A DNA stretch of 64,000 bases from Psychroserpens sp. Hel_I_66 (GTDB lineage: Bacteria > Bacteroidota > Bacteroidia > Flavobacteriales > Flavobacteriaceae), in assembly GCF_000799465.1 (NCBI RefSeq), contig NZ_JUGU01000001.1:1736001-1800000 (forward strand), in the 5' to 3' direction. A model generated the notes under the pieces. The model had not been told where the DNA came from, did no database searches, and saw nothing but the letters and a program-made list of their open reading frames with translations. Position numbers and translations under genes: made by a program. Positions 25,097-60,735 of this stretch are shown piece by piece. Position 1 is the stretch's first letter. Each line of letters begins with the position of its first letter.

Positions 25097-25210
25097 ATAA
25101 CGAAATATTGATGTGAACTATATGGATGTGAAAAATTGGCAAAAACCATCGTTATACCTCCAATTTGGTTTATTATGGAACATTCAATAACGCATATAAA
25201 CAAGTTGTGC
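25097..25210 (+). other. attI-like site between recombinase and first cassette
   Basis: The 124 bp after the recombinase gene end in CAATAACGCATATAAACAAGTT, which resembles the right arm of the array sites (CAACTAACCATATACAAAACGTT) up to the GTT at 25204. ATAACG occurs at 25097 and 25187 and inverted at 25150. There is no matching left arm, as expected for a primary attI site and unlike attC. Confidence 0.55.
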
Positions 25211-25431
25211 ATAATGCGAAAATCGAGCTGAAATTCAACATTTGAACTAAAAATGCCAACCGCACAGTCAAGCACATTTCATTTTTTTTCGTGCCTCAAA
25301 AAATAAAAAGAGCTTGCCTTTTCCCAACGCTGAATAATTGGATTTGAGACGATAGTTATCTATTGAGGTACAAAAATTGGTTAAATCGTAACTATTGTTT
25401 ACTTTTGAGAAACCAACTCAATGCAAATATT

Positions 25432-25647
25432 ATGACTTTTCTTGGTAAGTATCTTACTAACAAATCGATAAACAAAGCTGAAGTTTCTAGAAAAACTGGA
25501 ATTAGCAAGTCGAGACTTAGTAATCTCAGCAATAAAGAAAACGCTAATCTCAAAGCGGAGGAATTATATCTTATATCTAAAGCAATTGATGCTGACTCAA
25601 ATGAAATTCTCGAAAAAGTTTATGGGCATTTAAAACTGAATAAATAA
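25432..25647 (+). CDS. Xre-family helix-turn-helix regulator, 71 aa (cassette 1)
   Basis: A small Xre-type DNA-binding protein (NKAEVSRKTGISKSRLSNLSN, then ELYLISKAIDADSNEILEKVYG). The Met at 25432 starts the domain cleanly; an in-frame upstream extension looks non-coding. It ends 2 bp before the cytosine methyltransferase and resembles the controller proteins of restriction-modification systems. It probably represses or times expression of this four-gene unit. Confidence 0.8.
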   Translation: MTFLGKYLTNKSINKAEVSRKTGISKSRLSNLSNKENANLKAEELYLISKAIDADSNEILEKVYGHLKLNK

Positions 25648-25649
25648 TT

Positions 25650-26882
25650 ATGGGAAATTTCAATTTCATAGATTTATTTTCAGGTGCAGGTGGCTTATCT
25701 GAAGGTTTTATAAAGGCTGGTTTCAAACCTATTGCTCACGTAGAAATAGACAAAAAAGCTTGTGACACTTTAGAAACTCGTTTGATATATCATAAATTAA
25801 ATTCTGAAAATAAAACAGAAAAATATTACGATTATATTTCCGAAAAAATGACCAGAGAAGAGTTTATAAAAAACTTTGGCAATTCTGAACTTTCCGATTC
25901 TGTTATAAATATTCCAATTGGCGGAGATAACAACAAAATCATTTTTAAAAAAATAGATGAACTAGCCAATGGAAAACAAATTGACTTAATTGTCGGTGGA
26001 CCACCTTGTCAAGCCTACTCTCTTGTCGGAAGGTCAAGAGACAAAGATGGTATGAAGAACGACCCTCGAAATTTTCTCTATAAAGAATACGCAAAATTCC
26101 TTAAAAAGTACGAACCAAAAGTATTTGTCTTTGAGAATGTTATGGGATTAATAACTGCCGAAAAAGGAAGTTATTTTAAAAATATGCAAGCATATTTTAA
26201 ACGTATTGGTTATGAATTAGATTATACAATTCAAAAATCGGAGCATTTCGGAGTGTTACAAAAAAGAAGAAGAATTATTTTAATAGGTTGGCAAAAAGGC
26301 ACAGATTTTAAATACCCAAAATTTGACAAACTCAACGAGAAATTTACTATAAGTCAAATTCTATCCGATTTAAAAAAACTAAAACCTGGAGACCAAAAAA
26401 ATGTCACAAATTATGCTAAACCTACAACAGTATATCTTGAAAGATTTGAATTAAGAAATGGAGTTGACTTTGTAACTCAACATATAGCTAGACCTCACAA
26501 TGAAAGAGATTTAAACATTTACAAAATTGCAATAAACAAGTGGTTGAAAAAATCAGAACGATTAAAGTATCCTGATTTACCGACTGAACTCAAAACTCAT
26601 AAAAACGAAAAATCATTTATTGACAGATACAAAGTTGTCGACATTAATGGGCTTTCTCACACAATGGTTGCTCATATAGCAAAAGATGGTCATCATTATA
26701 TCTACCCAGACAATAGGCAAATAAGGTCAATTTCAGTCAGAGAAGCTGCAAGGATTCAATCATTTCCAGACGACTTCTTTTTTGAAGGTGGCAGAAGTGC
26801 TGCTTTTAGACAAATAGGAAATGCAGTCCCACCTTTGATGGCAAAAGAAATTGCAAAACAAATTAAAGCACAGCTACAATGA
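25650..26882 (+). CDS. DNA cytosine-5 methyltransferase, 410 aa (cassette 1)
   Basis: A C5-cytosine DNA methyltransferase of the Dcm/HhaI type. Motif I is FIDLFSGAGGLSEGF (residues about 6-20). Motif IV with the catalytic Cys is GGPPCQAYS near residue 113. Motif VI is FENVMG near 160. Motif VIII is QKRRRIILIGW near 206. Motifs IX and X are RIQSFPDDF and IGNAVPP near the end. An insert of about 50 residues after motif I is typical of some R-M enzymes. It overlaps the GHKL gene by 4 bp. No separate endonuclease is recognisable next to it. Confidence 0.95.
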   Translation: MGNFNFIDLFSGAGGLSEGFIKAGFKPIAHVEIDKKACDTLETRLIYHKLNSENKTEKYYDYISEKMTREEFIKNFGNSELSDSVINIPIGGDNNKIIFKKIDELANGKQIDLIVGGPPCQAYSLVGRSRDKDGMKNDPRNFLYKEYAKFLKKYEPKVFVFENVMGLITAEKGSYFKNMQAYFKRIGYELDYTIQKSEHFGVLQKRRRIILIGWQKGTDFKYPKFDKLNEKFTISQILSDLKKLKPGDQKNVTNYAKPTTVYLERFELRNGVDFVTQHIARPHNERDLNIYKIAINKWLKKSERLKYPDLPTELKTHKNEKSFIDRYKVVDINGLSHTMVAHIAKDGHHYIYPDNRQIRSISVREAARIQSFPDDFFFEGGRSAAFRQIGNAVPPLMAKEIAKQIKAQLQ

Positions 26883-29104
26883 GTGATACAACTTACAAAA
26901 TAAGACCAGCAGCTAGATTAATTCACACCATTGGAAGTGATTTAATTGGCGATTCCTATGCTGCATTGGTTGAACTCGTTAAAAACTCTTATGACGCAGA
27001 TGCAACTAACGTTGACATAGTATTTAAATATGCAGAAATAGAAAAAGAAAACGCCTTGTTTATATCCATAAGAGATAATGGTCACGGAATGGATTTTGAC
27101 ACAGTTATAAATAAATGGCTTGTTCCAGCAACTAATGACAAACTCAATAGAAAAATTAGTAAAAATGGAACAAGAATTCTTCAAGGAAGAAAAGGTATTG
27201 GTCGATTTGCTGCTTCAATTCTAGGACAAGAAATGACACTTTCGACTGTTGATGAAAATGGAGAAAAATCAGAGACTGTTATCGATTGGAGAATTTTCAA
27301 AACAGATGATTATTTAGAAAATATAGAAATTCTTGTTGATAAGAACAAAACAAACGAGCCATCTGGCACAGAAATACTAATTATCGCCAAAGATGAGAAG
27401 TATGAAGAAATAATTTTAAATGATGAAGGATTAGAGGAAACTGTTGAAAAAATTGATTCTAAATTATCCTATTGGAATAGAGACACTTTAGAACAGTTAA
27501 TTAATGAATTACGAAAACTCATTTCACCTTTTGAAGAATCAATTGATGATGAATTTAAAATTAATTTATCGTTTGAAAACTCACCATTTCCAGAAATAGA
27601 TGAGAACATAAAAATTGATACTTACCCAATTATTCAATTTTACGATTACCGTATTTCAGGAACCATTTCAGAGCAAGGAAAGGCAAATCTTTTATTTGAA
27701 AACAATGTAAATCCAGAAGTTCTACAAAAAGAAAAAATTTCTACAACTTTCGAAGTAACCGGCAATAACAAGTATTGTGGTGCAATGAAAGTCGACTTCA
27801 GGGTTTTTGATAGAGAGCCAGAAGCAATTGACAATTTGATAAATAAAGGTCTAATAAACCCTGTATCAAAAAATCTAATGGGAAAAAGGCAAGCAAAAAG
27901 GTTGCTTGATGAAGTTTATGGTGTTAATGTTTATAAAAACTTTTTCCGAATTAGACCTTATGGAAATGGTGGAATAGATTGGTTGGATTTAGATAAAGAT
28001 AGAATCCAAAACTTTACTTTAAAAATCAGTAATAATCAAATTGTTGGTTTTGTTACAATACAATCCGAAGAAAAATCTGGACTTGAAGAGAAAAGTGCAA
28101 GAGATGGATTAAAAGAAAACGAATATTACTTTGGTTTAAAGGAGCTTGCTCAGAAAGCCTTATTCGAACTAGAAACTAGAAGATTAGCTTATAGAATTAA
28201 AAGCGAAAAAAGCAGAGGTAAACAAACCAAAGTACAAGACACCATAAATTCTTTATTCAGTTTAGCAGAAGTTAAGACAACGATAGGAAAAAAGCTTTCA
28301 GAATTCAAAATTGATAAAAAAGCGATTGATGAAATTGAAACAATATTAACAAAAGAAGAAGAGAAAAAATTAGAGTTAAAAGAAGAAATTGAAAAAACAA
28401 TAGCAATTTACCAAGGTCAAGCTACTTTAGGAAAGATTGTTAATTTCATTCTTCACGAGGGTCGTAAACCATTACAGTTTTTTAATTCCGAAACTAAAGT
28501 GATGGAACGTTATTTAAAGTTTTATAGAGCAACAAAAGATGAAGAAAACCTAGATGAATTAACACAAAGCATCAATGGTTTTAAAGTAAATAGCAAATTC
28601 ATTTCAAATCTTTTTAAGAGAATTTCACCTCTTGCAAAGCAAAAACGAGACAAGAAAAGAAACTTCCCTGTAGTTCAAGTTATTAATGAAAGTAAAGATG
28701 TTTTTAAATCCCATTTAGAAGATAAGAATATAAAATTCACGGTTATGGGAAACAAGAATATAGAAATATATGGCTGGTCTGAAGACTTATATATCGCTTT
28801 GACTAATCTAATTGAAAATAGTGTTTATTGGCTTTCTATCTCTAAGTCCAAAACTAAAGAAATAAAAATTGATGTATTGGAAAATAACAATTCTGTAATT
28901 ATTGATTATAAGGACTCTGGACCAGGACTATCAAATTTAGAAATAGAATCAAGTGCAATATTTGAGCCTGGTTATTCGAAAAAAATTAATGGGACAGGCT
29001 TAGGTTTGGCAATTGCTGGAGAATCTATCGATAGATTAAATGGCGAACTTTCTGCAAGAAAGAGTACAGAAGGAGCCTATTTTCAGATTGAAATCAACAA
29101 ATAA
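26879..29104 (+). CDS. Double-GHKL ATPase/histidine-kinase-like protein, 741 aa (cassette 1)
   Basis: The N-terminal domain is an HSP90/MORC-like GHKL ATPase: ALVELVKNSYDADAT (N box, about 25-39), RDNGHGMD (G1 box) and GRKGIGRFAASILG. The C-terminal domain is histidine-kinase-like. It has a HisKA-type helix with LHEGRKPLQFF near 520 and a second HATPase with LIENSVYW, DSGPGL and NGTGLGLAIAGESIDRL. Such proteins occur with methyltransferases and receiver proteins in predicted conflict systems. It overlaps the methyltransferase gene by 4 bp and is 1 bp from the receiver gene. It probably senses an invader signal and passes it to the receiver protein. Confidence 0.85.
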   Translation: MSDTTYKIRPAARLIHTIGSDLIGDSYAALVELVKNSYDADATNVDIVFKYAEIEKENALFISIRDNGHGMDFDTVINKWLVPATNDKLNRKISKNGTRILQGRKGIGRFAASILGQEMTLSTVDENGEKSETVIDWRIFKTDDYLENIEILVDKNKTNEPSGTEILIIAKDEKYEEIILNDEGLEETVEKIDSKLSYWNRDTLEQLINELRKLISPFEESIDDEFKINLSFENSPFPEIDENIKIDTYPIIQFYDYRISGTISEQGKANLLFENNVNPEVLQKEKISTTFEVTGNNKYCGAMKVDFRVFDREPEAIDNLINKGLINPVSKNLMGKRQAKRLLDEVYGVNVYKNFFRIRPYGNGGIDWLDLDKDRIQNFTLKISNNQIVGFVTIQSEEKSGLEEKSARDGLKENEYYFGLKELAQKALFELETRRLAYRIKSEKSRGKQTKVQDTINSLFSLAEVKTTIGKKLSEFKIDKKAIDEIETILTKEEEKKLELKEEIEKTIAIYQGQATLGKIVNFILHEGRKPLQFFNSETKVMERYLKFYRATKDEENLDELTQSINGFKVNSKFISNLFKRISPLAKQKRDKKRNFPVVQVINESKDVFKSHLEDKNIKFTVMGNKNIEIYGWSEDLYIALTNLIENSVYWLSISKSKTKEIKIDVLENNNSVIIDYKDSGPGLSNLEIESSAIFEPGYSKKINGTGLGLAIAGESIDRLNGELSARKSTEGAYFQIEINK

Positions 29105-29105
29105 T

Positions 29106-30218
29106 ATGAAGGAACTAAATTTACTAATTGTCGAAGACGATTCAAACGTTATTGCAATATATACTAGAGATATAGACTCTTACAACAAAACAAATTCTGA
29201 CATTAAAATTGAGTTAACAATTCTTTCGGATAAAGACCAAGCTATTGATATGCTTAAAAATTCCGATAATGTTTTTGACGGAGCTGTTATTGATTTAGAT
29301 TTAAAACAATCAGGAGGTAGTGACAGTTCAGGAAATGAAGTGATTAGAGAAGTAAAGAACAATTTGAGGTTTCCTGTTTTTGTTATTTCTGGTACATCAC
29401 ACAATATTGACCCATCTCTTAGTGAAGAAACCTCTTTCTTCAAAGTACGCAATAGAGATGATGATTTCGATTTTATTGAAGAAATTGTCGCTATTTACAA
29501 TACTGGTATTACGGAAATATTAAATCGTAAAGGAACAATAGAAAGCTATATTAATGATATATTTTGGAACCATTTATCCAGTTCATTAGACTTATGGACT
29601 GATGACAAAAAAAGGAGTCCTGAAGAAAAACAAAAATCTTTACTTAGATATACTCTATTACACTTGCAAGAATATTTAGAGATTACGGAAGATTCTGAAT
29701 TTGAAAATTACCATCCCTCTGAAATTTATATTACACCAGTAATAAAACCACACGTATTTACTGGAGATATTGTTCAAAATACTAATGACTCTTTGAATTA
29801 TGTTGTACTAACACCTTCTTGTGATTTAGCTCAAGGAAAAGCAAAGGATATTTTACTCGTAGCAATTGAACCAATAAAGAATACAATTGCAGGAGAAAAA
29901 ATTGGGATTCTAAAAAAGGGAAAAGCGGAAAAAGAACAATTGGAAGATGCCGAACAAATTTTACGGAAGCTAATTCACAACGCATATTCGAATAAATATC
30001 ACTTTTTGCCTAAGTATAAAAATATTGATGGAGGATTAATAAATTTTCAAAAGCTACATTCATTAAGAGTTAAAGATTTTAATGATAATTATGCTAGGGT
30101 TGCTTCAATTAACGGCAGTTTTACTAAAGATGTTGTAGCACGATTTTCTTATTATTATTCCAGACAAGGTTCGCCTGATTTTGATTCCAATGAAGTATTT
30201 GAATCATTATTTGAATAG
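29106..30218 (+). CDS. Receiver-domain protein with uncharacterised C-terminal domain, 370 aa (cassette 1)
   Basis: The N-terminal receiver shows IVEDDSN (about 7-13), a candidate phospho-acceptor Asp in GAVIDLDL near 61 and FVISGTSH near 92. The C-terminal 230 residues have no HTH; the conspicuous motif is VVLTPSCDLAQGKAKDILL near 230, where a Cys and Asp could be functional. The Met at 29106, 1 bp after the GHKL stop, is chosen because an upstream in-frame extension only overlaps that gene. With the GHKL kinase it forms a two-component pair whose output is probably enzymatic or protein-binding. Confidence 0.8.
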   Translation: MKELNLLIVEDDSNVIAIYTRDIDSYNKTNSDIKIELTILSDKDQAIDMLKNSDNVFDGAVIDLDLKQSGGSDSSGNEVIREVKNNLRFPVFVISGTSHNIDPSLSEETSFFKVRNRDDDFDFIEEIVAIYNTGITEILNRKGTIESYINDIFWNHLSSSLDLWTDDKKRSPEEKQKSLLRYTLLHLQEYLEITEDSEFENYHPSEIYITPVIKPHVFTGDIVQNTNDSLNYVVLTPSCDLAQGKAKDILLVAIEPIKNTIAGEKIGILKKGKAEKEQLEDAEQILRKLIHNAYSNKYHFLPKYKNIDGGLINFQKLHSLRVKDFNDNYARVASINGSFTKDVVARFSYYYSRQGSPDFDSNEVFESLFE

Positions 30219-30367
30219 CAAAAAGCCAACGCTCAAAGCCATACACATTCGCAATTCGCTACAGCCAACGCTACGCCCAAAATTGCAAAAGAGTATGTCT
30301 CGCCAACGCTCACTTCCGAACTAAATAACAAACATCGGAAAACTAAGCTGAACGTGAAAAGCACTAT
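30219..30367 (+). other. Non-coding 3' tail of cassette 1
   Basis: No gene is visible. CCAACGCT occurs three times (near 30229, 30270 and 30303) and once at 25328 before the regulator. This may mark edges of an older insertion that brought the methyltransferase module into the cassette. Confidence 0.4.
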
Positions 30368-30564
30368 GCACAACAACGTGTATAAAACATAGCTATTACA
30401 GGCTTTCCGAGAGGTTTTTGTATATTTACAAAGTACGCCAAATTTTTTATTTGGTTATATTTAGAAAAGAAAATTAAACATAAAAATAAAAAATTCGGCT
30501 CGTGCTAAATCCGATAAGTTAGCGACTATTTATACGCTACGTTTCATACACAAGACCGTTGTGT
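30368..30564 (+). repeat. attC-like site 1 (long type)
   Basis: It opens GCACAAC and closes GTTGTGT. The arms are GTGTATAAAACATAGC and GCTACGTTTCATACAC, with two A.C mismatches only. The centre has the CCAAATTT...AAATTTGG-type hairpin of the roughly 195-bp subfamily. Confidence 0.8.
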
Positions 30565-30597: not shown

Positions 30598-31353
30598 ATG
30601 TTTAGACATCAAGGCAAAAGCAGAACTTTAAAACACAATCTGCGAATTGCTACGATATTGTCCTTTGTTGCTGGAATTGTCAATGTGACGGGATTTTTGG
30701 CATTTACACAATTGACAACAAATGTAACTGGACATTTTGCTCTTTTTATAAGTGATGTCGCTAATTTTGAGGTTTGGAAAGGAACAATTTATTTTATTTA
30801 TATTTTTTCTTTTCTCTTTGGTTCTTTTTTTTCAAGTTTCCTAATCGAAAAATTCAAGAAAAATAGAAAACTAAATGTTTTTGTTTTACCAACAATAATT
30901 GAATGTGTGATTTTATTATCAATTGCAATCATAAGTAATACAGGAGAAATAAAATATCCTGACTTAATTGTTTGCTCGCTTCTCTTTGCTATGGGACTTC
31001 AAAACTCTTTTGTAACTAAAATTTCAAATGCTATCGTAAGGACAACACATCTGACTGGACTGTTTACAGATTTAGGAATTGAACTATCGCAACTCTTTTT
31101 CCCTGAATCTCATCCACATAGAGAAAAAATTAAAGCAACTATAAAACTGCGAATTTATATAATATGCTTCTTCTTTTTTGGTGGAATAATTGGCGGATTT
31201 CTTTACTCAAGACTTGACTTGAAGTTGAACTCTCTGATTTTTGGAGCGATAATATTATTAATAAGCCTATTTTATGACGATTTGAGATATAGATTAATTA
31301 GAACTAAAAGAAAATATAAACAAAGAAAAAAAACTGCACACAACACCGTATAA
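30598..31353 (+). CDS. YoaK/DUF1275-like membrane protein, 251 aa (cassette 2)
   Basis: Six predicted helices and the family signature at the start (ILSFVAGIVNVTGFLAF...TNVTGHFALF) and middle (LLFAMGLQNSFVTK, TTHLTGLFTDLGIELS) identify a DUF1275/YoaK-family inner-membrane protein. Function of the family is not established. The last codons (TAHNTV) and the stop lie inside the following attC-like site. Cassette ends GTTGTGTGCA and TGCACACAAC are exact complements. Confidence 0.88.
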   Translation: MFRHQGKSRTLKHNLRIATILSFVAGIVNVTGFLAFTQLTTNVTGHFALFISDVANFEVWKGTIYFIYIFSFLFGSFFSSFLIEKFKKNRKLNVFVLPTIIECVILLSIAIISNTGEIKYPDLIVCSLLFAMGLQNSFVTKISNAIVRTTHLTGLFTDLGIELSQLFFPESHPHREKIKATIKLRIYIICFFFFGGIIGGFLYSRLDLKLNSLIFGAIILLISLFYDDLRYRLIRTKRKYKQRKKTAHNTV

Positions 31354-31470
31354 AAATAATTGCTAAATTAGTGCTTAACCAAAGGTCGTTGCGCTTTTGC
31401 TACGTCTGATTTTCCTGCGGAAAATCCTCGCACACAAAACCGCAACTATTCTTATACATAAACGTTGCCC
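31338..31470 (+). repeat. attC-like site 2
   Basis: It opens ACACAAC and closes GTTGCCC. The arms are GTATAAAAATAATTGC and GCAACTATTCTTATAC, with two A.C mismatches. The central hairpin is GATTTTCC/GGAAAATC. Confidence 0.8.
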
Positions 31471-31495
31471 ACAATTTGAGAAAAATCGTAAATCA

Positions 31496-32140
31496 ATGAA
31501 AATAAGTCTATTAATTGGAATTCTTTTTGGCTCAACTTTATTTGCGTGCGGAAACAAAAATGATGACAGATTTGTTTTCTTCCTTCACAATCGATTTTTA
31601 GAAGAACACGAACTGAATGAGTTGCATCCCGAATTTGGGCGGACTGAATATAACGAAATTATTGCTGAATTTAAAAAAGGAGGACTTAAAGTAATATCCG
31701 AAAAACGGAATGGAAATGTTAACGCAAGAGAATACGCAATCGGAATCGTAACCCAAATTGACAGTTTAATAAAGAACGAAATAGAACCGAGAAAAATAAC
31801 TGTGGTTGGAACTTCAAAAGGCGGATATATTGCTCAATACGTTTCGACTTTAGCAAATAATCAAGATTTGAATTTTGTATTTATTGCAAGTTTTAGGAAT
31901 AGTGATATTCAAAATATACCTGAAATCAATTTTTGCGGAAATATTTTAACGATTTACGAAAAGTCCGACCCATTTGGAGTTTCTTCATTGGAACGAAAGA
32001 AAATCTCGAATTGCGAAATAAAACACTTTAAAGAAATCGAACTGAATACAGGAATGGGACACGGATTTTTATTTAAACCATTAAATGAATGGATTGAACC
32101 GACAATAAAGTGGGCGAATGGAAATTACAACGTGGAATAA
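31496..32140 (+). CDS. Alpha/beta-hydrolase-like lipoprotein, 214 aa (cassette 3, copy A1)
   Basis: A lipoprotein signal (FGSTLFAC, Cys near residue 16) is followed by a small alpha/beta-hydrolase core. The nucleophile elbow is VGTSKGGYIAQY near residue 106, the acidic residue is in YEKSDPFG near 160 and the His is in TGMGHGFLF near 195. An outer-membrane or periplasmic esterase or peptidase is likely. The Met at 31496 is used because the second copy (53080) has different upstream DNA, so the longer in-frame extension is attC sequence. The whole 812-bp cassette is repeated at 53049-53860. Confidence 0.82.
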   Translation: MKISLLIGILFGSTLFACGNKNDDRFVFFLHNRFLEEHELNELHPEFGRTEYNEIIAEFKKGGLKVISEKRNGNVNAREYAIGIVTQIDSLIKNEIEPRKITVVGTSKGGYIAQYVSTLANNQDLNFVFIASFRNSDIQNIPEINFCGNILTIYEKSDPFGVSSLERKKISNCEIKHFKEIELNTGMGHGFLFKPLNEWIEPTIKWANGNYNVE

Positions 32141-32147
32141 AAACTGT

Positions 32148-32282
32148 GGGCAACACCGTGTATAATTAATTGCTTGGTTCTAGCCTACTTGCGAAAATTC
32201 CTGCGGAATATTCACGGGTTCGTAAATGTTTACTAACTTAGTTGCTTAACCACGCAACTAACCATACACAATCACGTTGTGC
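32148..32282 (+). repeat. attC-like site 3
   Basis: It opens GGGCAAC and closes GTTGTGC. The arms are GTGTATAATTAATTGC and GCAACTAACCATACAC, with three A.C mismatches that become G.T on the bottom strand. It is identical to site 28 up to the closing GTT. Confidence 0.85.
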
Positions 32283-32297
32283 AACATTTGACCAAAA

Positions 32298-32729
32298 ATG
32301 TTCAATAATAGAACAAATTCTAAAAAAACGACCTCAATTATGATAGTTGAAATTGCAAAATGGGTTGTGATACTTTTCGGAATTTTTATAATTTTCATTG
32401 GGTTTGTAATGCTTATTAATCCAATAAAAGCGAGAAATACATTGAGAAAAGCTGGTAGTACAAATTTCATCAATTACGCAGAAATAACACTTCGATTGAT
32501 TCCAGCAATAGCTTTGATATTATGTTCGGAATTTTCTAAATTCCCTATTGCGTTTAAAGTTTTTGGATGGATAATGCTCATAACATCTCTCATACTTTAT
32601 ATTGTCCCGAGAAAAATACATCACAAATTTTCAATGAAAAGTGCAGATATTCTTAAACCAATTTATTTCCAATTTATCTCGCCTTTTGCATTTTTATTTG
32701 GCGGATTATTAATTTATAACGTAACTTGA
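32298..32729 (+). CDS. Membrane protein, 143 aa, unknown (cassette 4, copy B1)
   Basis: Four hydrophobic segments (about residues 20-42, 65-82, 88-106 and 125-141) and basic loops predict a small inner-membrane protein. No family is recognised. A Met at codon 15 (IVEIAKWVVILF) is an alternative start. The 613-bp cassette is duplicated exactly at 51815-52427. Cassette ends are complementary (GTTGTGCAAC and its partner GTTGCACAAC). Confidence 0.7.
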   Translation: MFNNRTNSKKTTSIMIVEIAKWVVILFGIFIIFIGFVMLINPIKARNTLRKAGSTNFINYAEITLRLIPAIALILCSEFSKFPIAFKVFGWIMLITSLILYIVPRKIHHKFSMKSADILKPIYFQFISPFAFLFGGLLIYNVT

Positions 32730-32764
32730 ATTTGAATTCTGAAAAACTGAACGTAAAAAACGTT

Positions 32765-32895
32765 GCACAACACCGTATATAAACTATGGCTTGGTCAGTC
32801 CTCACTTGGAAAATCCTGCGGATTTTCCAAAGCCAGTTTTTATTAGGAAAGATCTGTGCCGAAACACGCCACAGCTCATATACCAAACGTTGTAG
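32765..32895 (+). repeat. attC-like site 4 (TATGGC type)
   Basis: It opens GCACAAC and closes GTTGTAG. The arms are GTATATAAACTATGGC and GCCACAGCTCATATAC, with three A.C mismatches. The central hairpin is GGAAAATCC/GGATTTTCC. Confidence 0.82.
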
Positions 32896-32913
32896 CCAAT
32901 TTAAGAAAACCCT

Positions 32914-33474
32914 ATGGCAATTAACCAATTTATAACTTACATACTACCAAAAAAGGCAATTGAAGCAAAATTTGGAGAGATACCAAGTCAGTTGGAAATT
33001 AAACATTCCGAATGGGAAAAGTTTTGGGAAAAATATACTTCATCTGACAAAGAAGATTTGGAACCTGATTTTGAAGATGCGAGAACCATTAATTGGTGGA
33101 AAGAAACAAAGATTAATATAACGGAATTAGAAACGGAAATTGACAAAATAATCACTCGTGCAAGTTGGACTGACGACAGAATTTGGAAAAGTGAAAAAGC
33201 CGAATTTGACCACGACGTGAGTATTGGATTAAACAATACAAATGAGTTTATAGATGAATTTATGTTTCGCACTGACTTAACCGATATTAATCTGAATTTC
33301 CTAAACTCAATGCTAAAAATCTGTAAAGAAAATGACTGGATTTTAATGGACAGAAACGGAAATTTATGCAACCCAAATATTTCGGATTTAAGACAAATAA
33401 TAAAAGGTTCAGATGCCGACCGATTTTTAAAAAATCCAACTAATTTTTTTGACGAACTGAATAATAATAAATAA
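32914..33474 (+). CDS. Soluble protein, 186 aa, unknown (cassette 5, copy C1)
   Basis: An acidic, tryptophan-rich protein (SEWEKFWEKYTSS, TINWWKETKIN, RASWTDDRIW) without signal peptide or membrane helix. No family is recognised. The spread of aromatic and acidic residues resembles small immunity-type proteins, but this is weak. The 720-bp cassette occurs again, identical in protein, at 45702-46421. Confidence 0.7.
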   Translation: MAINQFITYILPKKAIEAKFGEIPSQLEIKHSEWEKFWEKYTSSDKEDLEPDFEDARTINWWKETKINITELETEIDKIITRASWTDDRIWKSEKAEFDHDVSIGLNNTNEFIDEFMFRTDLTDINLNFLNSMLKICKENDWILMDRNGNLCNPNISDLRQIIKGSDADRFLKNPTNFFDELNNNK

Positions 33475-33481
33475 AAACTGG

Positions 33482-33615
33482 CTACAACACAGTGTATAAT
33501 TAATTGCTTTGGCTAGTGCTTATCTGGAAAATTCCTTCGGAATTTTCTCTGGCAAGCTTTTGTTTACTAAATTAGTTGCTAAACCACGCAACTAACCATA
33601 CACAAAACGTTGTGC
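33482..33615 (+). repeat. attC-like site 5
   Basis: It opens CTACAAC and closes GTTGTGC. The arms are GTGTATAATTAATTGC and GCAACTAACCATACAC. The centre is GAAAATTCC/GGAATTTTC. It is the same as site 18 until the closing GTT. Confidence 0.85.
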
Positions 33616-33632: not shown

Positions 33633-34280
33633 GTGAATTTCATTAAAAACATTTTCGGAATTAAAAAAAACAAGACTTCAAACGGAGCTTTTTTTAGTGC
33701 GACTGAATATGAAATGAAAAACTTTTTCTGCGGAATTGGAAAATCCGATATTCAAGAAAATAAGATATCAATAACCGAATATCCATTTGAACCTTCAATT
33801 GCTTATCCTGAAAAAATAATAAGTGCAAGCGAAATCAAATTAATAACTGCGGATTTCGGACTTTGTAGAATATATGTAGATAAAGACATTATTTTCATTT
33901 CAGCGGAACAAAAAACGAAGTTGCTAAAGTTTGCGGAAATGAACAAAATAAGACTTACAAAACATAGTTGGAATTGGGATTGGATTTTAGAACCATATCT
34001 TGATACTGAATTTACGTCTGACAATGAAAAACGAATTGAAAAGTGTCTAACCGAAGTTGGAATAGACAAAATCGAAACCGAAAAAATTCGTAGCGAAGTT
34101 GGAAAACAAATGTATAAATACAACTTCGACACAATGCTTTGGGACTGGTGCAGTTTAGGTTTATATGATGTTTTATCTGCTATGCGAGTAAAATATAATG
34201 AAAACGAATTTAGAGAATTTTATAAAAGAGCGATAGAAATAGATAAACGAAATAAAAATACGTTGCACAACACCGTATAA
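33633..34280 (+). CDS. Soluble protein, 215 aa, unknown (cassette 6)
   Basis: The GTG at 33633 (NFIKNIFGIKKNK) is taken as start because the longer frame reads back through attC site 5. The protein has a lysine-rich N-terminus and a mixed alpha/beta body (SWNWDWILEPYLDTEF, WDWCSLGLYDVLSA) with no recognised family. The last residues (TLHNTV) and the stop lie within attC site 6. Cassette ends GTTGTGCAAC and GTTGCACAAC are complementary. Confidence 0.65.
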   Translation: MNFIKNIFGIKKNKTSNGAFFSATEYEMKNFFCGIGKSDIQENKISITEYPFEPSIAYPEKIISASEIKLITADFGLCRIYVDKDIIFISAEQKTKLLKFAEMNKIRLTKHSWNWDWILEPYLDTEFTSDNEKRIEKCLTEVGIDKIETEKIRSEVGKQMYKYNFDTMLWDWCSLGLYDVLSAMRVKYNENEFREFYKRAIEIDKRNKNTLHNTV

Positions 34281-34395
34281 AATTAATTGCTAGTACAAGC
34301 CTACTTACGAAAATCCTCGCGGATTTTCTATTCGGTTTGTATTTGCTAAATTCGTTGCTAAATCACGCAACTAATCTTATACAAAACCGTTGTGC
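34265..34395 (+). repeat. attC-like site 6
   Basis: It opens GCACAAC and closes GTTGTGC. The outer arms are GTATAAAATTAATTGC and GCAACTAATCTTATAC, and the central hairpin is GAAAATCC/GGATTTTC. Confidence 0.8.
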
Positions 34396-34468: not shown

Positions 34469-34915
34469 TTGAAGAGTAAAGACGGAAAAGCCGAATTTTT
34501 AAAAAATGACAAAACCCAACGTTTAATATATGGCGGAATTACTTTGTTATGGATTTTTGGCGGACTGAATATGGTTAAATATAAATATGACTTTAGCCCT
34601 TTCTATTTTGATATTCTTTACGCAATAATAATTCCGACAATAATTCTGATTTTGCCAATTCTAATAAATAGACGAATATTTTGGATTGGTGCTTTAGGGT
34701 TTTCAATAATGCACACAATTTGGACAATTTATAAAATAGTTTTCGCTGGATTATCAAATTTTCATCGTGACTATGCACCTAATTCAATGTGGAAAATAAA
34801 GGATATTTTAGTATCTGTATTTATGATTTTTATATCTTGTTTTATATGTTGGATAATATGGAAAATAAAACCAGAACGCGAAAACACTATGCACAACAAT
34901 GTATATAAAACATAG
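34469..34915 (+). CDS. Four-helix membrane protein, 148 aa (cassette 7)
   Basis: The TTG at 34469 follows AATAGGAA, a better ribosome-binding context than most cassettes have. Four helices are predicted (about residues 20-35, 45-65, 70-92 and 115-140). The frame runs into attC site 7, adding HNNVYKT before the stop. No family is recognised. Cassette ends GTTGTGCATA and TATGCACAAC pair exactly. Confidence 0.65.
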   Translation: MKSKDGKAEFLKNDKTQRLIYGGITLLWIFGGLNMVKYKYDFSPFYFDILYAIIIPTIILILPILINRRIFWIGALGFSIMHTIWTIYKIVFAGLSNFHRDYAPNSMWKIKDILVSVFMIFISCFICWIIWKIKPERENTMHNNVYKT

Positions 34916-35087
34916 CTATTATAGGCTTTCCGAGAGGTTTTCGTGTATTTGTGGAGACCGCCAAATTTTTAAATTTGGCTTTTAGTAAAATAAAGATAAA
35001 AAGAAAAATTTAAAAATTCGGCTCGTGTATAATCCGAAACGATAGCGTCTTTTTTAACGCTACGTTTCATATACGGAGACGTTGGCA
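34891..35087 (+). repeat. attC-like site 7 (long type)
   Basis: It opens GCACAAC and closes GTTGGCA. It is of the 195-bp subfamily with central CCAAATTTTTAAATTTGG and a ...AAAATTCGGCTCGTG right half. The outer arms are GTATATAAAACATAGC and GCTACGTTTCATATAC. Confidence 0.8.
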
Positions 35088-35664: not shown

Positions 35665-35795
35665 TGCCAACACCGTATATAATTTATTGCTAGTTTTAGC
35701 CTACTTACGAAAATCCTCGCGGATTTTCTATTCGGTTTTTATTTGCTAACTTTAGTGCTTAAACCACGCAACAAACCATATACAAAAACGTTGTG
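35665..35795 (+). repeat. attC-like site 8
   Basis: It opens TGCCAAC and closes GTTGTGA. The arms are GTATATAATTTATTGC and GCAACAAACCATATAC, with three A.C mismatches at the usual positions. Confidence 0.82.
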
Positions 35796-36190: not shown

Positions 36191-36263
36191 ACAAACGGAA
36201 TAAATTGAGCGGAAAATAACTGCTCACAACAAAGTACTGTGTTAAAAAACAAGTAAAACCCCA

Positions 36264-38580: not shown

Positions 38581-38603
38581 TATTGTATTTTTACGCCTTA
38601 TCT

Positions 38604-38619: not shown

Positions 38620-38688
38620 ATAATTTAGAACTATTAGAGACTTTAACTAAAATTCATATAGAAAAAGTTGAAAAGGAATAAAAACTAC

Positions 38689-48313: not shown

Positions 48314-48841
48314 ATGTTTACACCAATTATAAGAATCGTTCTTGTTATATTTAGCCTAATAGCAGCTGCATACTTTTACTCAAAAGAGGATTTTACCAAT
48401 ATGTCAATGATGCTAATTGCGGGCGGACTTTTCATTTATGGATATTTTAAATACGGAACTGTGTATGCTGCTTTCCAGCAAATGAAAAAGGAAAACATAA
48501 ATAAAGCCGAAGAACTAATTTCAAAAATTAAGAATCCAGAAAAACTGACTAAAGGACACAAAAGCTATTATTATTTTACAACTGGAATTATTGCTTTAGA
48601 GAAAAAGGAATATAAAAAAAGTCATTCTGACTTGACTCAAGCTCTGAATATAGGTTTAAGAACTGAAAATGATAAATCTATTGTATTGTTGAATTTAGCG
48701 AATATTGAACTTTTAAGAAAAGATTTTAATAAGGCGACTGAATATATTAAAAAAGTTAGAGAACTTAATTTAAAACCATTAGTTGAGTCAGAAACTAACC
48801 GAATTGAAAAAGAAATAAACGTTGCACAACACAGTATATAA
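48314..48841 (+). CDS. TPR membrane protein, 175 aa (cassette 21, second gene)
   Basis: Two N-terminal helices (about residues 5-22 and 30-47) are followed by TPR-like repeats (GHKSYYYFTTGIIALEKKEYKKS, VLLNLANIELLRKDFNKATEYIKKV). The C-terminal residues NVAQHSI and the stop are encoded by the attC opening. Probably an inner-membrane scaffold protein. Cassette ends GTTGTGCAAC and GTTGCACAAC are complementary. Confidence 0.7.
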   Translation: MFTPIIRIVLVIFSLIAAAYFYSKEDFTNMSMMLIAGGLFIYGYFKYGTVYAAFQQMKKENINKAEELISKIKNPEKLTKGHKSYYYFTTGIIALEKKEYKKSHSDLTQALNIGLRTENDKSIVLLNLANIELLRKDFNKATEYIKKVRELNLKPLVESETNRIEKEINVAQHSI

Positions 48842-48955
48842 GCTATGGCTTGGTCAGTCCACACTTGGAAAATCCTGCGGATTTTCCAAAGCCAGTTTTT
48901 ATTTGGCGAGGTTCGTGCTTTAACACGCCACAGCTCATATACATAAACGTTGTGC
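48824..48955 (+). repeat. attC-like site 21 (TATGGC type)
   Basis: It opens GCACAAC and closes GTTGTGC. The arms are GTATATAAGCTATGGC and GCCACAGCTCATATAC. Here both closing cores match, so this junction is also self-complementary. Confidence 0.82.
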
Positions 48956-49753: not shown

Positions 49754-49883
49754 GCACAACAATGGCTATAAGTAATTGCTTGTTCTCGCCACTTCTGAAA
49801 ATCCTCACGGATTTTCAGTTTGGTGTGTACTTGCAAAGTTTTGTGCTAAACCACGCAACTACTCATAGCCGAGACCGTTACCA
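49754..49883 (+). repeat. attC-like site 22
   Basis: It opens GCACAAC and closes GTTACCA. The arms are GGCTATAAGTAATTGC and GCAACTACTCATAGCC. GGC/GCC replaces the usual GTG/CAC on both sides, a compensatory change. Confidence 0.82.
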
Positions 49884-50389: not shown

Positions 50390-50524
50390 TGGTAACACCG
50401 TGTATAATTAATTGCTTTGGCAAGTGCTTATTTGGAAAATTCCTTCGGAATTTTCTCGCGTTCGTTTTTGTTTACTAAATTAGTTGCTTAACCACGCAAC
50501 TAACCATACACAAAACCGTTGTGT
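50390..50524 (+). repeat. attC-like site 23
   Basis: It opens TGGTAAC and closes GTTGTGT. The arms are GTGTATAATTAATTGC and GCAACTAACCATACAC. The centre is GAAAATTCC/GGAATTTTC. Confidence 0.82.
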
Positions 50525-50942: not shown

Positions 50943-51076
50943 ACACAACAATGTATAACCGCAATTACGGCGGATTCGACTACGTCCGAATCCACTCGGA
51001 ATTGCTAAAGCCAGTGTTCAACCGAAAAAACAGCAACTTTAAACCCGTAACTGACGGTTATACGAGACCGTTAGCA
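50943..51076 (+). repeat. attC-like site 24 (CCG/CGG type)
   Basis: It opens ACACAAC and closes GTTAGCA. The arms are GTATAACCGCAATTACGG and CCGTAACTGACGGTTATAC, almost fully paired, with one A.C mismatch and one extra A in the right arm. Confidence 0.82.
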
Positions 51077-51686: not shown

Positions 51687-51820
51687 TGCTAACACCGTGT
51701 ATAATTAATTGCTTTGGCTAGTGCTCATCTGGAAAATTCCTTCGGAATTTTCTCTGGCAAGTTTTTGTTTACTAAATTAGTTGCTTAACCACGCAACTAA
51801 CCATACACCAAACGTTGTGC
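51687..51820 (+). repeat. attC-like site 25
   Basis: It opens TGCTAAC and closes GTTGTGC. The arms are GTGTATAATTAATTGC and GCAACTAACCATACAC. Confidence 0.82.
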
Positions 51821-51835
51821 AACATTTGACCAAAA

Positions 51836-52267
51836 ATGTTCAATAATAGAACAAATTCTAAAAAAACGACCTCAATTATGATAGTTGAAATTGCAAAATG
51901 GGTTGTGATACTTTTCGGAATTTTTATAATTTTCATTGGGTTTGTAATGCTTATTAATCCAATAAAAGCGAGAAATACATTGAGAAAAGCTGGTAGTACA
52001 AATTTCATCAATTACGCAGAAATAACACTTCGATTGATTCCAGCAATAGCTTTGATATTATGTTCGGAATTTTCTAAATTCCCTATTGCGTTTAAAGTTT
52101 TTGGATGGATAATGCTCATAACATCTCTCATACTTTATATTGTCCCGAGAAAAATACATCACAAATTTTCAATGAAAAGTGCAGATATTCTTAAACCAAT
52201 TTATTTCCAATTTATCTCGCCTTTTGCATTTTTATTTGGCGGATTATTAATTTATAACGTAACTTGA
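51836..52267 (+). CDS. Membrane protein, 143 aa (cassette 26, copy B2)
   Basis: Identical protein to the gene at 32298, within a 613-bp cassette (51815-52427) of exactly the same length as the first copy. Neighbours differ on both sides. It is followed here by a lipoprotein cassette and not by copy C. Confidence 0.72.
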   Translation: MFNNRTNSKKTTSIMIVEIAKWVVILFGIFIIFIGFVMLINPIKARNTLRKAGSTNFINYAEITLRLIPAIALILCSEFSKFPIAFKVFGWIMLITSLILYIVPRKIHHKFSMKSADILKPIYFQFISPFAFLFGGLLIYNVT

Positions 52268-52302
52268 ATTTGAATTCTGAAAAACTGAACGTAAAAAACG
52301 TT

Positions 52303-52433
52303 GCACAACACCGTATATAAACTATGGCTTGGTCAGTCCTCACTTGGAAAATCCTGCGGATTTTCCAAAGCCAGTTTTTATTAGGAAAGATCTGTGCCGA
52401 AACACGCCACAGCTCATATACCAAACGTTGTAG
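52303..52433 (+). repeat. attC-like site 26 (same as site 4)
   Basis: It opens GCACAAC and closes GTTGTAG. It is identical to site 4; the next cassette diverges only after the closing core. Confidence 0.85.
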
Positions 52434-52451
52434 CACATTAAACAAAATAAA

Positions 52452-52921: not shown

Positions 52922-53054
52922 CTACAACATTGTATAACCGCAATTACGGCGGATTCGGATACGTCCGAATCCACTCGGAATTGCTAAAGTCTGTGCCAAA
53001 CCGAAAATTAACGCATACCAACCCGTAACTGACGGTTATACGTTACCGTTGCCC
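52922..53054 (+). repeat. attC-like site 27 (CCG/CGG type)
   Basis: It opens CTACAAC and closes GTTGCCC. It is the same subfamily as site 24, with TATAACCGCAATTACGG on the left and ACGGTTATA on the right. Confidence 0.82.
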
Positions 53055-53079
53055 ACAATTTGAGAAAAATCGTAAATCA

Positions 53080-53724
53080 ATGAAAATAAGTCTATTAATT
53101 GGAATTCTTTTTGGCTCAACTTTATTTGCGTGCGGAAACAAAAATGATGACAGATTTGTTTTCTTCCTTCACAATCGATTTTTAGAAGAACACGAACTGA
53201 ATGAGTTGCATCCCGAATTTGGGCGGACTGAATATAACGAAATTATTGCTGAATTTAAAAAAGGAGGACTTAAAGTAATATCCGAAAAACGGAATGGAAA
53301 TGTTAACGCAAGAGAATACGCAATCGGAATCGTAACCCAAATTGACAGTTTAATAAAGAACGAAATAGAACCGAGAAAAATAACTGTGGTTGGAACTTCA
53401 AAAGGCGGATATATTGCTCAATACGTTTCGACTTTAGCAAATAATCAAGATTTGAATTTTGTATTTATTGCAAGTTTTAGGAATAGTGATATTCAAAATA
53501 TACCTGAAATCAATTTTTGCGGAAATATTTTAACGATTTACGAAAAGTCCGACCCATTTGGAGTTTCTTCATTGGAACGAAAGAAAATCTCGAATTGCGA
53601 AATAAAACACTTTAAAGAAATCGAACTGAATACAGGAATGGGACACGGATTTTTATTTAAACCATTAAATGAATGGATTGAACCGACAATAAAGTGGGCG
53701 AATGGAAATTACAACGTGGAATAA
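53080..53724 (+). CDS. Alpha/beta-hydrolase-like lipoprotein, 214 aa (cassette 28, copy A2)
   Basis: Identical protein to the gene at 31496, with the same GTSKGG nucleophile elbow. The 812-bp cassette (53049-53860) equals the first copy, while the flanks are unrelated. The order of the three duplicated cassettes here (C, B, A, with others between) is the reverse of the first block (A, B, C adjacent). Confidence 0.82.
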   Translation: MKISLLIGILFGSTLFACGNKNDDRFVFFLHNRFLEEHELNELHPEFGRTEYNEIIAEFKKGGLKVISEKRNGNVNAREYAIGIVTQIDSLIKNEIEPRKITVVGTSKGGYIAQYVSTLANNQDLNFVFIASFRNSDIQNIPEINFCGNILTIYEKSDPFGVSSLERKKISNCEIKHFKEIELNTGMGHGFLFKPLNEWIEPTIKWANGNYNVE

Positions 53725-53731
53725 AAACTGT

Positions 53732-53866
53732 GGGCAACACCGTGTATAATTAATTGCTTGGTTCTAGCCTACTTGCGAAAATTCCTGCGGAATATTCACG
53801 GGTTCGTAAATGTTTACTAACTTAGTTGCTTAACCACGCAACTAACCATACACAATCACGTTACCA
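53732..53866 (+). repeat. attC-like site 28 (same as site 3)
   Basis: It opens GGGCAAC and closes GTTACCA. It matches site 3 up to GTT, then diverges. Confidence 0.85.
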
Positions 53867-54425: not shown

Positions 54426-54558
54426 TGGTAACACCGTGTATAAGCTATGGCTTGTCCTCGCCCACTTGGAAAATCCTGCGGATTTTCCTCTGGCAAGTAT
54501 CGGTTTGGAATTGTCCGTAACGAACCCACGCCACAGCTCATACACAAGACCGTTGGCA
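54426..54558 (+). repeat. attC-like site 29 (TATGGC type)
   Basis: It opens TGGTAAC and closes GTTGGCA. The arms are GTGTATAAGCTATGGC and GCCACAGCTCATACAC. GTGTAT/ATACAC replaces GTATAT/ATATAC of its relatives, changed on both sides. Confidence 0.82.
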
Positions 54559-55005: not shown

Positions 55006-55137
55006 TGCCAACACCGTATATAATTTATTGCTAGTTATAGCCTACTTACGAAAATCCCCGCGGATTTTCTATTCGGTTTTTATTTTCTAAATTATGTGCT
55101 TAAACCACGCAACAAACCATATACAAAACCGTTGTAA
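55006..55137 (+). repeat. attC-like site 30
   Basis: It opens TGCCAAC and closes GTTGTAA. The arms are GTATATAATTTATTGC and GCAACAAACCATATAC. Confidence 0.82.
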
Positions 55138-55628: not shown

Positions 55629-55760
55629 TTACAACACCGTATATAAGCTATGGCTTGGTCAGTCCACACTTGGAAAATCCTCCGGATTTTCCAAAGTCAG
55701 TTTTTATCAGGAAAGGTCTGTGCCGAGACACGCCACAGCCCATATACATCAACGTTACCC
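55629..55760 (+). repeat. attC-like site 31 (TATGGC type)
   Basis: It opens TTACAAC and closes GTTACCC. The arms are GTATATAAGCTATGGC and GCCACAGCCCATATAC. Confidence 0.8.
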
Positions 55761-56586: not shown

Positions 56587-56720
56587 GGGTAACAACGTGT
56601 ATAATTAATTGCTATGGCAAGTGCTTATCTGGAAAATTCCTTCGGAATTTTCTATGGCAAGTATTTGTTTACTAAATTAGTTGCTGAACCACGCAACTAA
56701 CCATACACAAAACGTTGTGC
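56587..56720 (+). repeat. attC-like site 32
   Basis: It opens GGGTAAC and closes GTTGTGC. The arms are GTGTATAATTAATTGC and GCAACTAACCATACAC. Confidence 0.82.
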
Positions 56721-57168: not shown

Positions 57169-57301
57169 GCACAACACCGTATAAAAAAAATTGCTAGTTT
57201 TAGCTAAACCAAAGTTAGTTGCTCGTTTGCTAGCTTCTGATTTTCCTTCGGAAAATCCTCGCACACAAACACGCAACTTTCCTTATACATAAACGTTGTG
57301 C
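57169..57301 (+). repeat. attC-like site 33
   Basis: It opens GCACAAC and closes GTTGTGC. The arms are GTATAAAAAAAATTGC and GCAACTTTCCTTATAC, with the GATTTTCC/GGAAAATC centre. Confidence 0.8.
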
Positions 57302-57924: not shown

Positions 57925-58122
57925 GCACAACAACGTATAAAAACAATAGGGCAATTGTAGCAAAACCGAATGGTTCGGGCGCATTTGCGATGTCGCCAAA
58001 TTTTTAAATTTGGCTTATTGACAAAAAAAAATAATAAGAATAATTTAAAAATTCGGCTTGTGTTCAACCGAATGGTAACAGCATATTTTCCGCCCTACTG
58101 TTCTTATACACAAACGTTGTAC
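57925..58122 (+). repeat. attC-like site 34 (long type)
   Basis: It opens GCACAAC and closes GTTGTAC. It is of the 195-bp subfamily with CCAAATTTTTAAATTTGG and the AAAATTCGGC right half. Confidence 0.8.
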
Positions 58123-59021: not shown

Positions 59022-59155
59022 GTACAACACCGTGTAAAAAACATTGCTTATTTTAGTTCAATCGTTTGGGCATTGCGTGTTTGCCAGCTTCCGATTTTCC
59101 TGCGGAAAATCCTCGCAAGCAAGCACGCAACGTCCTTTACACATTAACGTTGTAA
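59022..59155 (+). repeat. attC-like site 35
   Basis: It opens GTACAAC and closes GTTGTAA. The arms begin GTGTAAAAAACATTGC and end GCAACGTCCTTTACAC, with the GATTTTCC/GGAAAATC centre. Confidence 0.8.
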
Positions 59156-59978: not shown

Positions 59979-60173
59979 TTACAACAACGTATATATCTCA
60001 TAGCTAGTTAGTTGATTAATCAAAGTTAAGGCTTATTTGCAAGTCCGCCAAATTTTTTAATTTGGCTTATTGAGTAAAAAAGATAATAAGAAAATTAAAA
60101 AATTCGGCTCGTGCTTCATCTGAAAATAATTTCATAATTTGCACGCTACGAGCCATATACAGAGACGTTGCCC
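59979..60173 (+). repeat. attC-like site 36 (long type)
   Basis: It opens TTACAAC and closes GTTGCCC. It is of the 195-bp subfamily with CCAAATTTTTTAATTTGG and AAAATTCGGCTCGTG. Confidence 0.8.
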
Positions 60174-60178
60174 ACAAT

Positions 60179-60601
60179 ATGAAAAAAGCTCTTTTGATAT
60201 TAATAATTGGAATTCTAAATTGGAATTGCAACTCTGATAAAAAAAGTTACGAACCGAATTTAGCAATGATAAATCAAAAATCGGAACAAGACAATTCATT
60301 CGAAAAAGGGAAAACCTTATTCAAAGAGAATTGTGTTGCTTGCCATTATATCGGAATGAACAAAATAGCGACCGCACCAGCATTAGGCGGAATAACAGAA
60401 AGGCGTAATAAAGAATGGCTTTATAACTATACAAGAAACTCAAGTGAAATGTATAAAAATGGCGATAGCATTGCGATTGAATTAAGAAATCAAGGTTGGG
60501 CGTTAATGTTTTCGTTTCCGAATTTGACTGACAAAAACTTGGATGACATATATCACTTTGTGGAAAAGCAATACGAATTGACTAAAAAACGGAATAAATA
60601 A
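60179..60601 (+). CDS. Cytochrome c lipoprotein, 140 aa (cassette 37, last)
   Basis: A signal with a Cys near residue 17 (GILNWNCNSD) precedes a class I cytochrome c domain. The haem motif is CVACH near residue 52 (GKTLFKENCVACHYIG), then a MFSFPNLTDKNLDDIYHFVEKQ end in which Met is a likely axial ligand. It is a periplasmic, probably lipid-anchored electron carrier. Cassette ends GTTGCCCACA and TGTAGGCAAC match with one change, weaker than elsewhere. Confidence 0.88.
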   Translation: MKKALLILIIGILNWNCNSDKKSYEPNLAMINQKSEQDNSFEKGKTLFKENCVACHYIGMNKIATAPALGGITERRNKEWLYNYTRNSSEMYKNGDSIAIELRNQGWALMFSFPNLTDKNLDDIYHFVEKQYELTKKRNK

Positions 60602-60608
60602 ATACTGT

Positions 60609-60735
60609 AGGCAACAACGGCTATAATTCATTGCGGCTGAATTCCTAATCGGAATTCACCACAATTTTGCTATCTTTCGGCTACGGCGGAAAGAATCCTG
60701 CGGATTTTTCCGCAACGAAATCATAGCCAAAACCG
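60609..60735 (+). repeat. Terminal attC-like site 37, closing core degenerate
   Basis: It opens AGGCAAC with arms GGCTATAATTCATTGC and GCAACGAAATCATAGCC. Where GTT should close the site the sequence reads ACCGCTCATAAC, with no GTT core. This is the distal end of the array. Confidence 0.7.

Follow-up and report, generated by a model that had tools for sequence, protein, structure and literature searches.

Can gene cassettes be collected and exchanged in the manner of an integron by a tyrosine recombinase that lacks the segment peculiar to integron integrases? This question is raised by a locus of the flavobacterium Psychroserpens sp. Hel_I_66, from whose genome (a single contig of 3.84 Mb) we analysed a window of 64,000 nucleotides, G000:C1:1736001-1800000; positions refer to this window unless kb or Mb of the genome are given. 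The window carries 37 sites resembling the attC sites of integrons, all in a single orientation and spanning 30372 to 60737, behind a tyrosine recombinase gene and an attI-like GTT. Our answer is that these sites delimit an array of 37 cassettes, which was likely assembled and reshuffled by the adjacent recombinase, an enzyme apparently devoid of the IntI-specific additional (I2) segment. The head of the array comprises:

23947-25080, plus strand, tyrosine recombinase of 377 amino acids, predicted cassette recombinase (PF13495, PF00589)
25140-25213, plus strand, attI-like site; the first cassette opens at GTT 25204, and the left limit is approximate

The sites of the window were located by a search for stems of the type AAC...CGTT and are given from AAC to GTT; the site interrupted by an insertion sequence (IS), the last site and the right end of the site at 52926 were set by hand.

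30372-30560, plus strand, attC-like site 1 (long)
31342-31466, plus strand, attC-like site 2
32152-32278, plus strand, attC-like site 3
32769-32891, plus strand, attC-like site 4
33486-33611, plus strand, attC-like site 5
34269-34391, plus strand, attC-like site 6
34895-35083, plus strand, attC-like site 7 (long)
35669-35792, plus strand, attC-like site 8
36228-37569, plus strand, attC-like site 9, split by an IS110-family element, set by hand
36264-37235, minus strand, IS110-family transposase within site 9 (PF02371, PF01548)
38693-38815, plus strand, attC-like site 10
39554-39678, plus strand, attC-like site 11
41201-41390, plus strand, attC-like site 12 (long)
42221-42343, plus strand, attC-like site 13
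42993-43116, plus strand, attC-like site 14
43664-43787, plus strand, attC-like site 15
44223-44348, plus strand, attC-like site 16
45581-45703, plus strand, attC-like site 17
46298-46423, plus strand, attC-like site 18
47126-47250, plus strand, attC-like site 19
47914-48038, plus strand, attC-like site 20
48828-48951, plus strand, attC-like site 21
49758-49879, plus strand, attC-like site 22
50394-50520, plus strand, attC-like site 23
50947-51072, plus strand, attC-like site 24
51691-51816, plus strand, attC-like site 25
52307-52429, plus strand, attC-like site 26
52926-53050, plus strand, attC-like site 27, right end set by hand
53736-53862, plus strand, attC-like site 28
54430-54554, plus strand, attC-like site 29
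55010-55133, plus strand, attC-like site 30
55633-55756, plus strand, attC-like site 31
56591-56716, plus strand, attC-like site 32
57173-57297, plus strand, attC-like site 33
57929-58118, plus strand, attC-like site 34 (long)
59026-59151, plus strand, attC-like site 35
59983-60169, plus strand, attC-like site 36 (long)
60613-60737, plus strand, attC-like site 37, array end, right core GCT instead of GTT, set by hand

Thirty of these are short sites with both cores (122-127 nt), five are long (187-190 nt), one is split by the IS110-family element, and one is the last site (125 nt). A symmetric stem rule, which ignores flank bases and was also used outside the window, recovered 35 of the 37 sites, with no further match on the plus strand and none on the minus strand; its specificity is one match per 145,137 shuffled bases. 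A covariance model derived from the 30 short sites likewise recovered 35 of 37 in a search of the genome, failing on sites 7 (long, at 34895) and 37 (the last). Stem search, detector and covariance model thereby confirm what an earlier reading of the letters alone (hereafter the sequence-only reading) had described, i.e. 37 palindromic sites in one orientation behind a tyrosine recombinase and an attI-like site. Its statement that the units share one orientation holds for all 37 sites but not for all genes, as a gene pair in cassette 10 and the IS110 transposase lie on the minus strand, and calling the sites unusually large was too strong, since passages of PMC3607928 give lengths of 63-132 bp for attC in Treponema. 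Searching the window with Rfam gathering thresholds yielded no match, and ARAGORN detected no tRNA in it. The IS110-family element inside site 9 spans about 36234-37448. IS1111-type elements are known to target attC.

In an integron, a cassette runs from the TT of one core to the G of the following core, so that pairing is expected between the two ends of one cassette, whereas the flanks of a single site in the array come from different cassettes. Indeed, at least four bases beyond GTT/AAC pair between the start of a unit and the next site in 36 of the 37 units of the window; six of six bases pair in 35 of these 36, and at seven bases the match is full in 31 of 37. In the control, the flanks of one and the same site pair in 5 of 37, and re-dealt pairings averaged 4.2 and never exceeded 13 in 10,000. 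Outside the window (L016, being the same contig as L073, was excluded from these counts) at least six bases match in 163 of 180 consecutive pairs versus 3 of 180 within a site, with a mean of 3.3 and a maximum of 9 in 300 re-dealt pairings. For 262 distinct cassettes, same-genus loci included, the ends match at 7/7 bases in 164 and at six or more in 218, and the 164 use 83 different 7-mers; their eighth arm base is A opposite C, i.e. G.T on the bottom strand, in 162 cases. Each cassette end carries about 7 bases complementary to the cassette's own start. As far as sequence can tell, the units are circularisable cassettes opened at CGTT, each with its own left arm, hairpin and end. AAC and GTT are kept; the integron core GTTRRRY was counted in the 164 of 262 distinct cassettes whose arms match at 7/7 and occurs in just 9 of them.

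Three cassettes of the window are present twice at 100% identity:

31463-32278, plus strand, cassette 3 with its site, copy 1 (816 nt), equal to 53047-53862, both edges exactly at CGTT
53047-53862, plus strand, cassette 28, copy 2 of cassette 3 (identical block)
32274-32896, plus strand, cassette 4, copy 1 (623 nt), equal to 51812-52434, edges beyond CGTT by 1 base (left) and 5 bases (right)
51812-52434, plus strand, cassette 26, copy 2 of cassette 4 (identical block)
32885-33611, plus strand, cassette 5, copy 1 (727 nt), equal to 45697-46423, edges 3 bases past CGTT (left) and exactly at it (right)
45697-46423, plus strand, cassette 18, copy 2 of cassette 5 (identical block)

Seven pairs amounting to six identical blocks (three in the window, two in G281, one in G163) were walked outward to the first mismatch. 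Nine of the 12 edges are located exactly at CGTT, while three, all from window pairs, overrun it by 1, 3 and 5 bases, which the neighbours happen to share. The five bases left of CGTT vary between copies (ATAAA versus GTTAC in the first pair) and take 65 forms among the 314 sites that were also folded. Because the bases beyond and just left of CGTT differ, the joint is nearly a point without a shared spacer of 6-8 bp, and the variable bases to its left speak against an ordinary staggered double-strand exchange. When 269 cassettes from 38 loci were compared all against all, 19 pairs showed at least 80% identity over 70% of the shorter member, 18 of them within one genome and one between genomes (Algibacter onchidii and G163, 89.7%); three were in the window. 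Only four window cassettes could be matched to cassettes of other genomes across half or more of the shorter member (67-76% identity), two of them within the same genus, and the arrays of related genomes hold mostly cassettes other than those of the window. This comparison is one between species and does not follow one locus through strains, as the recombinases within the genus are only 37-46% identical. Fixed repeats with constant gene content, the finding that according to the sequence-only reading would have overturned it, are contradicted by the duplications and by the differing cassettes of related arrays.

On the bottom strand, the 30 short window sites fold to a continuous inner stem of 16 bp (RNAalifold, -22.3 kcal/mol; 21 consensus pairs in all, 11 with two-sided changes), whereas the top strand yields a broken stem with 13 pairs and -9.5 kcal/mol. 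The 17-bp stem of 231 distinct sites outside the window comprises 3206 Watson-Crick pairs, 506 G.T pairs on the bottom strand, 13 on the top strand and 202 other combinations, and over the 262 sites the wobbles occupy stem positions 7 (206), 12 (234) and 8 (79). Calculated with DNA energies, folding favours the bottom strand at 286 of 314 sites, or at 301 of 314 when the outer arms are considered alone; in these arms one-by-one mismatches number 412 for the top versus 44 for the bottom strand. What is an A.C mismatch on the top strand becomes a G.T wobble on the bottom strand, which is why the latter gives the better stem; this bias is not forced by detection, since the detector accepts A.C and G.T alike. 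An extra base is present in 3 of the 30 short window sites, and the consensus 16-bp bottom stem is unbroken. The outer stems of the 314 sites have 86 single bulges, a rate biased low outside the window because few bulge positions were allowed by the detector. A protruding (extrahelical) G in the L box is not conserved. Together, wobble bias and folding energies predict that the folded bottom strand is the substrate of recombination.

The enzyme that would read these sites consists of an N-terminal domain (about residues 1-75), a core-binding domain (101-182) and a catalytic domain (207-375), the residues R235, K260, H324, R327, H350 and Y359 of which are invariant in an alignment of 54 rows; its structure model has a pLDDT of 82 and a pTM of 0.57. 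It shares 79% identity with a metagenome protein and 74% with a protein of Winogradskyella alexanderae. The integron integrase family TIGR02249 is matched with 199.9 bits, under the cut-off of 265, which is reached by none of 19 relatives, versus 200.7 bits for the NCBIfam archaeal XerA family, and the PDB chains 4a8e and 2a3v match with 136 and 125 bits, respectively. XerA, XerC, XerD and XerH, together with IntI, are its nearest sequence profiles and folds. TIGR02249 aligns in two pieces (3-181 and 243-315) and so does 2a3v (9-182 and 248-318), with 22 query versus 65 chain residues in between; the alignment with IntI1 has gaps of 31 and 12 residues. Judged by these alignments, the recombinase is without the I2 segment, which together with the low TIGR02249 score bears out the earlier claim that it is not a recognisable IntI. 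The best match in Foldseek is the integron integrase structure 2a3v; fold matches in the PDB cover residues 99-363 and therefore allow no inference for the N-terminal domain. This alpha/beta domain (residues 1-75; window 23947-24171) is conserved, confidently modelled and without a Pfam match in the query. A tree of 34 rows unites 23 family rows with a support of 53/69 and has IntI1 as a single long branch; it cannot decide whether the family is a sister of IntI or of independent origin. Two other Xer-like genes of the genome, named from length and tree, fall into a separate group (support 100/100) and have no site within 1.5 kb. At some of the 23 tree-family loci (such as L034, L041, L053, L124) no array was seen.

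Position and orientation tie this family to the arrays. The recombinase gene is located directly in front of attI and runs the same way as the array, the attI-like site shows a 7/7 end match with site 1, and a similar CATATAAACAAGTT motif follows the genes of closer relatives. Of the 34 distinct recombinase loci that have a downstream site (window included), 29 yielded an attI by end match, 26-138 bp past the stop codon in 27 loci and 368 and 551 bp past it in two; seven further recombinase loci had no site in the stretch covered. Around 20 full-length named loci (the partial L021 was excluded) 64 sites lie downstream on the same strand and none downstream on the opposite strand, versus 4 sites in 171,768 bases upstream. 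A downstream site is present at 17 of the 20, and the remaining three contigs end 190-226 bp past the matched gene. Within flanks of 1.5 kb, 20 of 33 loci have a site. All ten genomes of the same genus (G675-G684) possess a family member, 37-46% identical, with sites downstream in eight; the other two contigs end about 150 bp past the gene.

The genome itself contains at least 108 matches to the covariance model with E of at most 0.01, 150 of the 3386 candidates having been scored. They make up the window array, two arrays headed by stop-bearing recombinases (108.8-139.6 and 160.9-179.4 kb), two arrays with no family member in the vicinity (2.614-2.633 and 1.266-1.279 Mb), and scattered sites. 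The stop-bearing genes L026 and L025 (G000:C1:140100-141200 and 180305-181405) encode near-identical array recombinases with one in-frame stop each, at different places, and the arrays behind them persist. Sites in the opposite orientation follow the array studied here, one starting at the window edge (63939-64000) and at least four being located at G000 1.7999-1.811 Mb. In a sample of the order (296 genomes, 91 genera) the site model matched in 71 genomes and 47 genera at E 1e-4 and the recombinase in 78 genomes at E 1e-50; in a sample of the class (395 genomes, E 1e-6, up to 8 matches counted per genome) the site model matched in 76 genomes, 65 of them outside the order. These 65 mostly have one to three matching sites. 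Most genomes of both samples, including many of genus g2 of the same family, are without a match. Five plasmid records match one site; on one plasmid of Tenacibaculum finnmarkense (L125, CP116298.1) the matching site lies beside a tyrosine recombinase of another group. The family member of Algibacter marinivivus (L020, 10001-11109) matches in two pieces and is possibly a broken gene. A phage origin was considered and rejected: the viral_contigs collection, in which close relatives only were detectable, held no relative, and one site was unmatched in a phage collection.

The integron architecture proposed before is supported by the pairing of cassette ends, copies bounded by CGTT, an attI adjoining the recombinase gene, and relatives whose arrays follow a recombinase of the same family. 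With integrons (IntI/attI/attC) the system shares mostly one-gene cassettes pointing one way, hairpin sites with AAC/GTT ends, the joint at GTT, a site belonging to each cassette, attI beside the recombinase gene and a bottom strand predicted to fold. It differs in that the recombinase has an extra N-terminal domain and no IntI-specific segment, in arms of some 7 bases closed by a G.T versus RYYY/RRRY in integrons, in strand bias through G.T wobbles without a conserved protruding G, and in a recombinase gene running with the array. In class 1 integrons this gene runs against the array, in Treponema with it. We picture the following route. The neighbouring recombinase would be the catalyst and join the folded bottom strand of a site to double-stranded attI or to another folded site; one strand would be exchanged and the junction resolved by replication. 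The wobbles may stand in for the protruding bases of classical attC, as would suit an enzyme without I2. Recombination of two sites would release a circular cassette with an R stem of 10-11 bp (CxxxxxxxAAC / GTTxxxxxxxA), which could then be inserted at attI beside the enzyme gene. The system behaves like an integron but departs from the classical family in four features examined here, namely the I2 segment, the family cut-off, the GTTRRRY core and the conserved protruding base. We lean towards regarding it as a second integron class, in which a Xer-like recombinase lacking I2 would recognise the bottom hairpin because G.T wobbles rather than protruding bases let that strand alone fold well, and would power the collecting of cassettes throughout the flavobacterial order and perhaps the class.

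Several observations weigh against this interpretation. The wobbles are mostly A on the left and C on the right (545 of 581 in the 262 distinct sites), and because they share the same bases they may be a fixed protein-contact motif instead of a folding signal; moreover, the sites are related by common descent. Fewer than six bases match in 17 of the 180 consecutive pairs outside the window, some of which may span undetected sites; one consecutive pair in the window does span a site that the detector misses. No attI match was obtained for 5 of the 34 loci with a downstream site, 13 of the 33 loci have no site in their 1.5 kb flanks (two of them the Xer-like controls and several at a contig edge), and no array was seen with a Chryseobacterium plasmid relative (50% identity). 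Xer enzymes of the host may act as catalysts or helpers. Finally, enzymes without I2 are not unheard of, because the IntI insertion, albeit essential for integron function, is not fully conserved in an integron-like subgroup according to passages of PMC8138268.

The alternative that survives best, though unlikely, is double-stranded exchange of the XerCD/XerH type at the right half-site (CATATAC..CGTT), the hairpin being an old inverted repeat. It would fit an enzyme as near to archaeal XerA as to IntI and without I2, but the would-be spacer beside CGTT varies between recombined sites with the joint nearly a point, and 262 distinct sites have preserved both the stem and the strand bias of its wobbles. 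Somewhat less probable still is that the array is simply a divergent classical integron. Layout, AAC/GTT cores, attI at the gene, the bottom-strand hairpin and 2a3v as best Foldseek match would all agree with that, as would the incomplete conservation of the IntI insertion in one scheme's integron-like subgroup (passages of PMC8138268); the missing IntI-specific segment, 0/19 relatives above the integrase cut-off, GTTRRRY in 9 of 164 cassettes and the unconserved protruding base disagree. We rate a little lower again the idea that another enzyme (host Xer or another integrase) moves the cassettes and the adjacent recombinase is incidental: the position and orientation of the family relative to the arrays are constant across relatives, even if in this genome the arrays at 2.614-2.633 and 1.266-1.279 Mb have no family member close by and two of the three recombinases that head arrays contain an in-frame stop. 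Static intergenic repeats (terminators or REP-like) between ordinary genes would explain hairpins between genes but hardly end pairing, identical copies at new places, one orientation and attI, and have a negligible probability.

A related case is known: as described in passages of PMC4792948, CTX phage integrates by host XerCD through a folded single strand, i.e. a stem without protruding bases is used by an enzyme lacking I2. Here, in contrast, the enzyme gene sits with the array, sites number in the dozens, and genes instead of a phage are exchanged. According to passages of PMC4792948 and PMC2727003, integrons rely on a single enzyme family, IntI, in which a dedicated domain serves the protruding attC bases. 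Bacteroidota are listed among the phyla with integrons (parts of PMC8618304 and PMC9668308), and within Bacteroidetes proper one complete integron, in Salinibacter ruber, is named by IntegronFinder 2.0 in the relevant part of PMC9024848; that IntegronFinder 2.0 reported none for Tenacibaculum larymnensis (part of PMC10013915) says nothing as yet about the arrays described here. We found no description of such a system in flavobacteria in the openly licensed PMC literature, bioRxiv lying outside the search. A cassette system with dozens of sites that dispenses with both the IntI-specific segment and the protruding bases would represent another route to directional single-strand cassette recombination, make testable which integron features are essential, and reveal a large reservoir of mobile genes among flavobacteria. 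If true, it would be a second bacterial gene-collecting machine, outside the reach of present integron definitions.

The cassettes are 552-1777 bp in length except for the first one (5354 bp), and their longest open reading frame is on the plus strand in 36 of 37, the IS110 gene not counted. The first cassette (25205-30558) encodes a C5 DNA methylase, a HATPase protein, one protein without a known family and one short protein resembling Xre-type regulators by eye; it resembles a defence locus taken up as a single cassette. Of the 37 distinct cassette proteins scanned, 12 reached a Pfam cut-off, the families being DNA methylase, HATPase, DUF1275, RES, Xre-MbcA antitoxin, Imm33-like, TPM, POT/MFS transporter, TPR, RDD, SseB N-terminal and cytochrome c. 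Cassette 10 (37568-38813) carries the above-mentioned minus-strand pair, which is RES / Xre-MbcA antitoxin-like and runs opposite to the array; toxin-antitoxin cassettes often do so. Upstream of the array, the region 1396-8668 encodes two proteins of the GmrSD type along with a specificity protein and a methylase of type I restriction.

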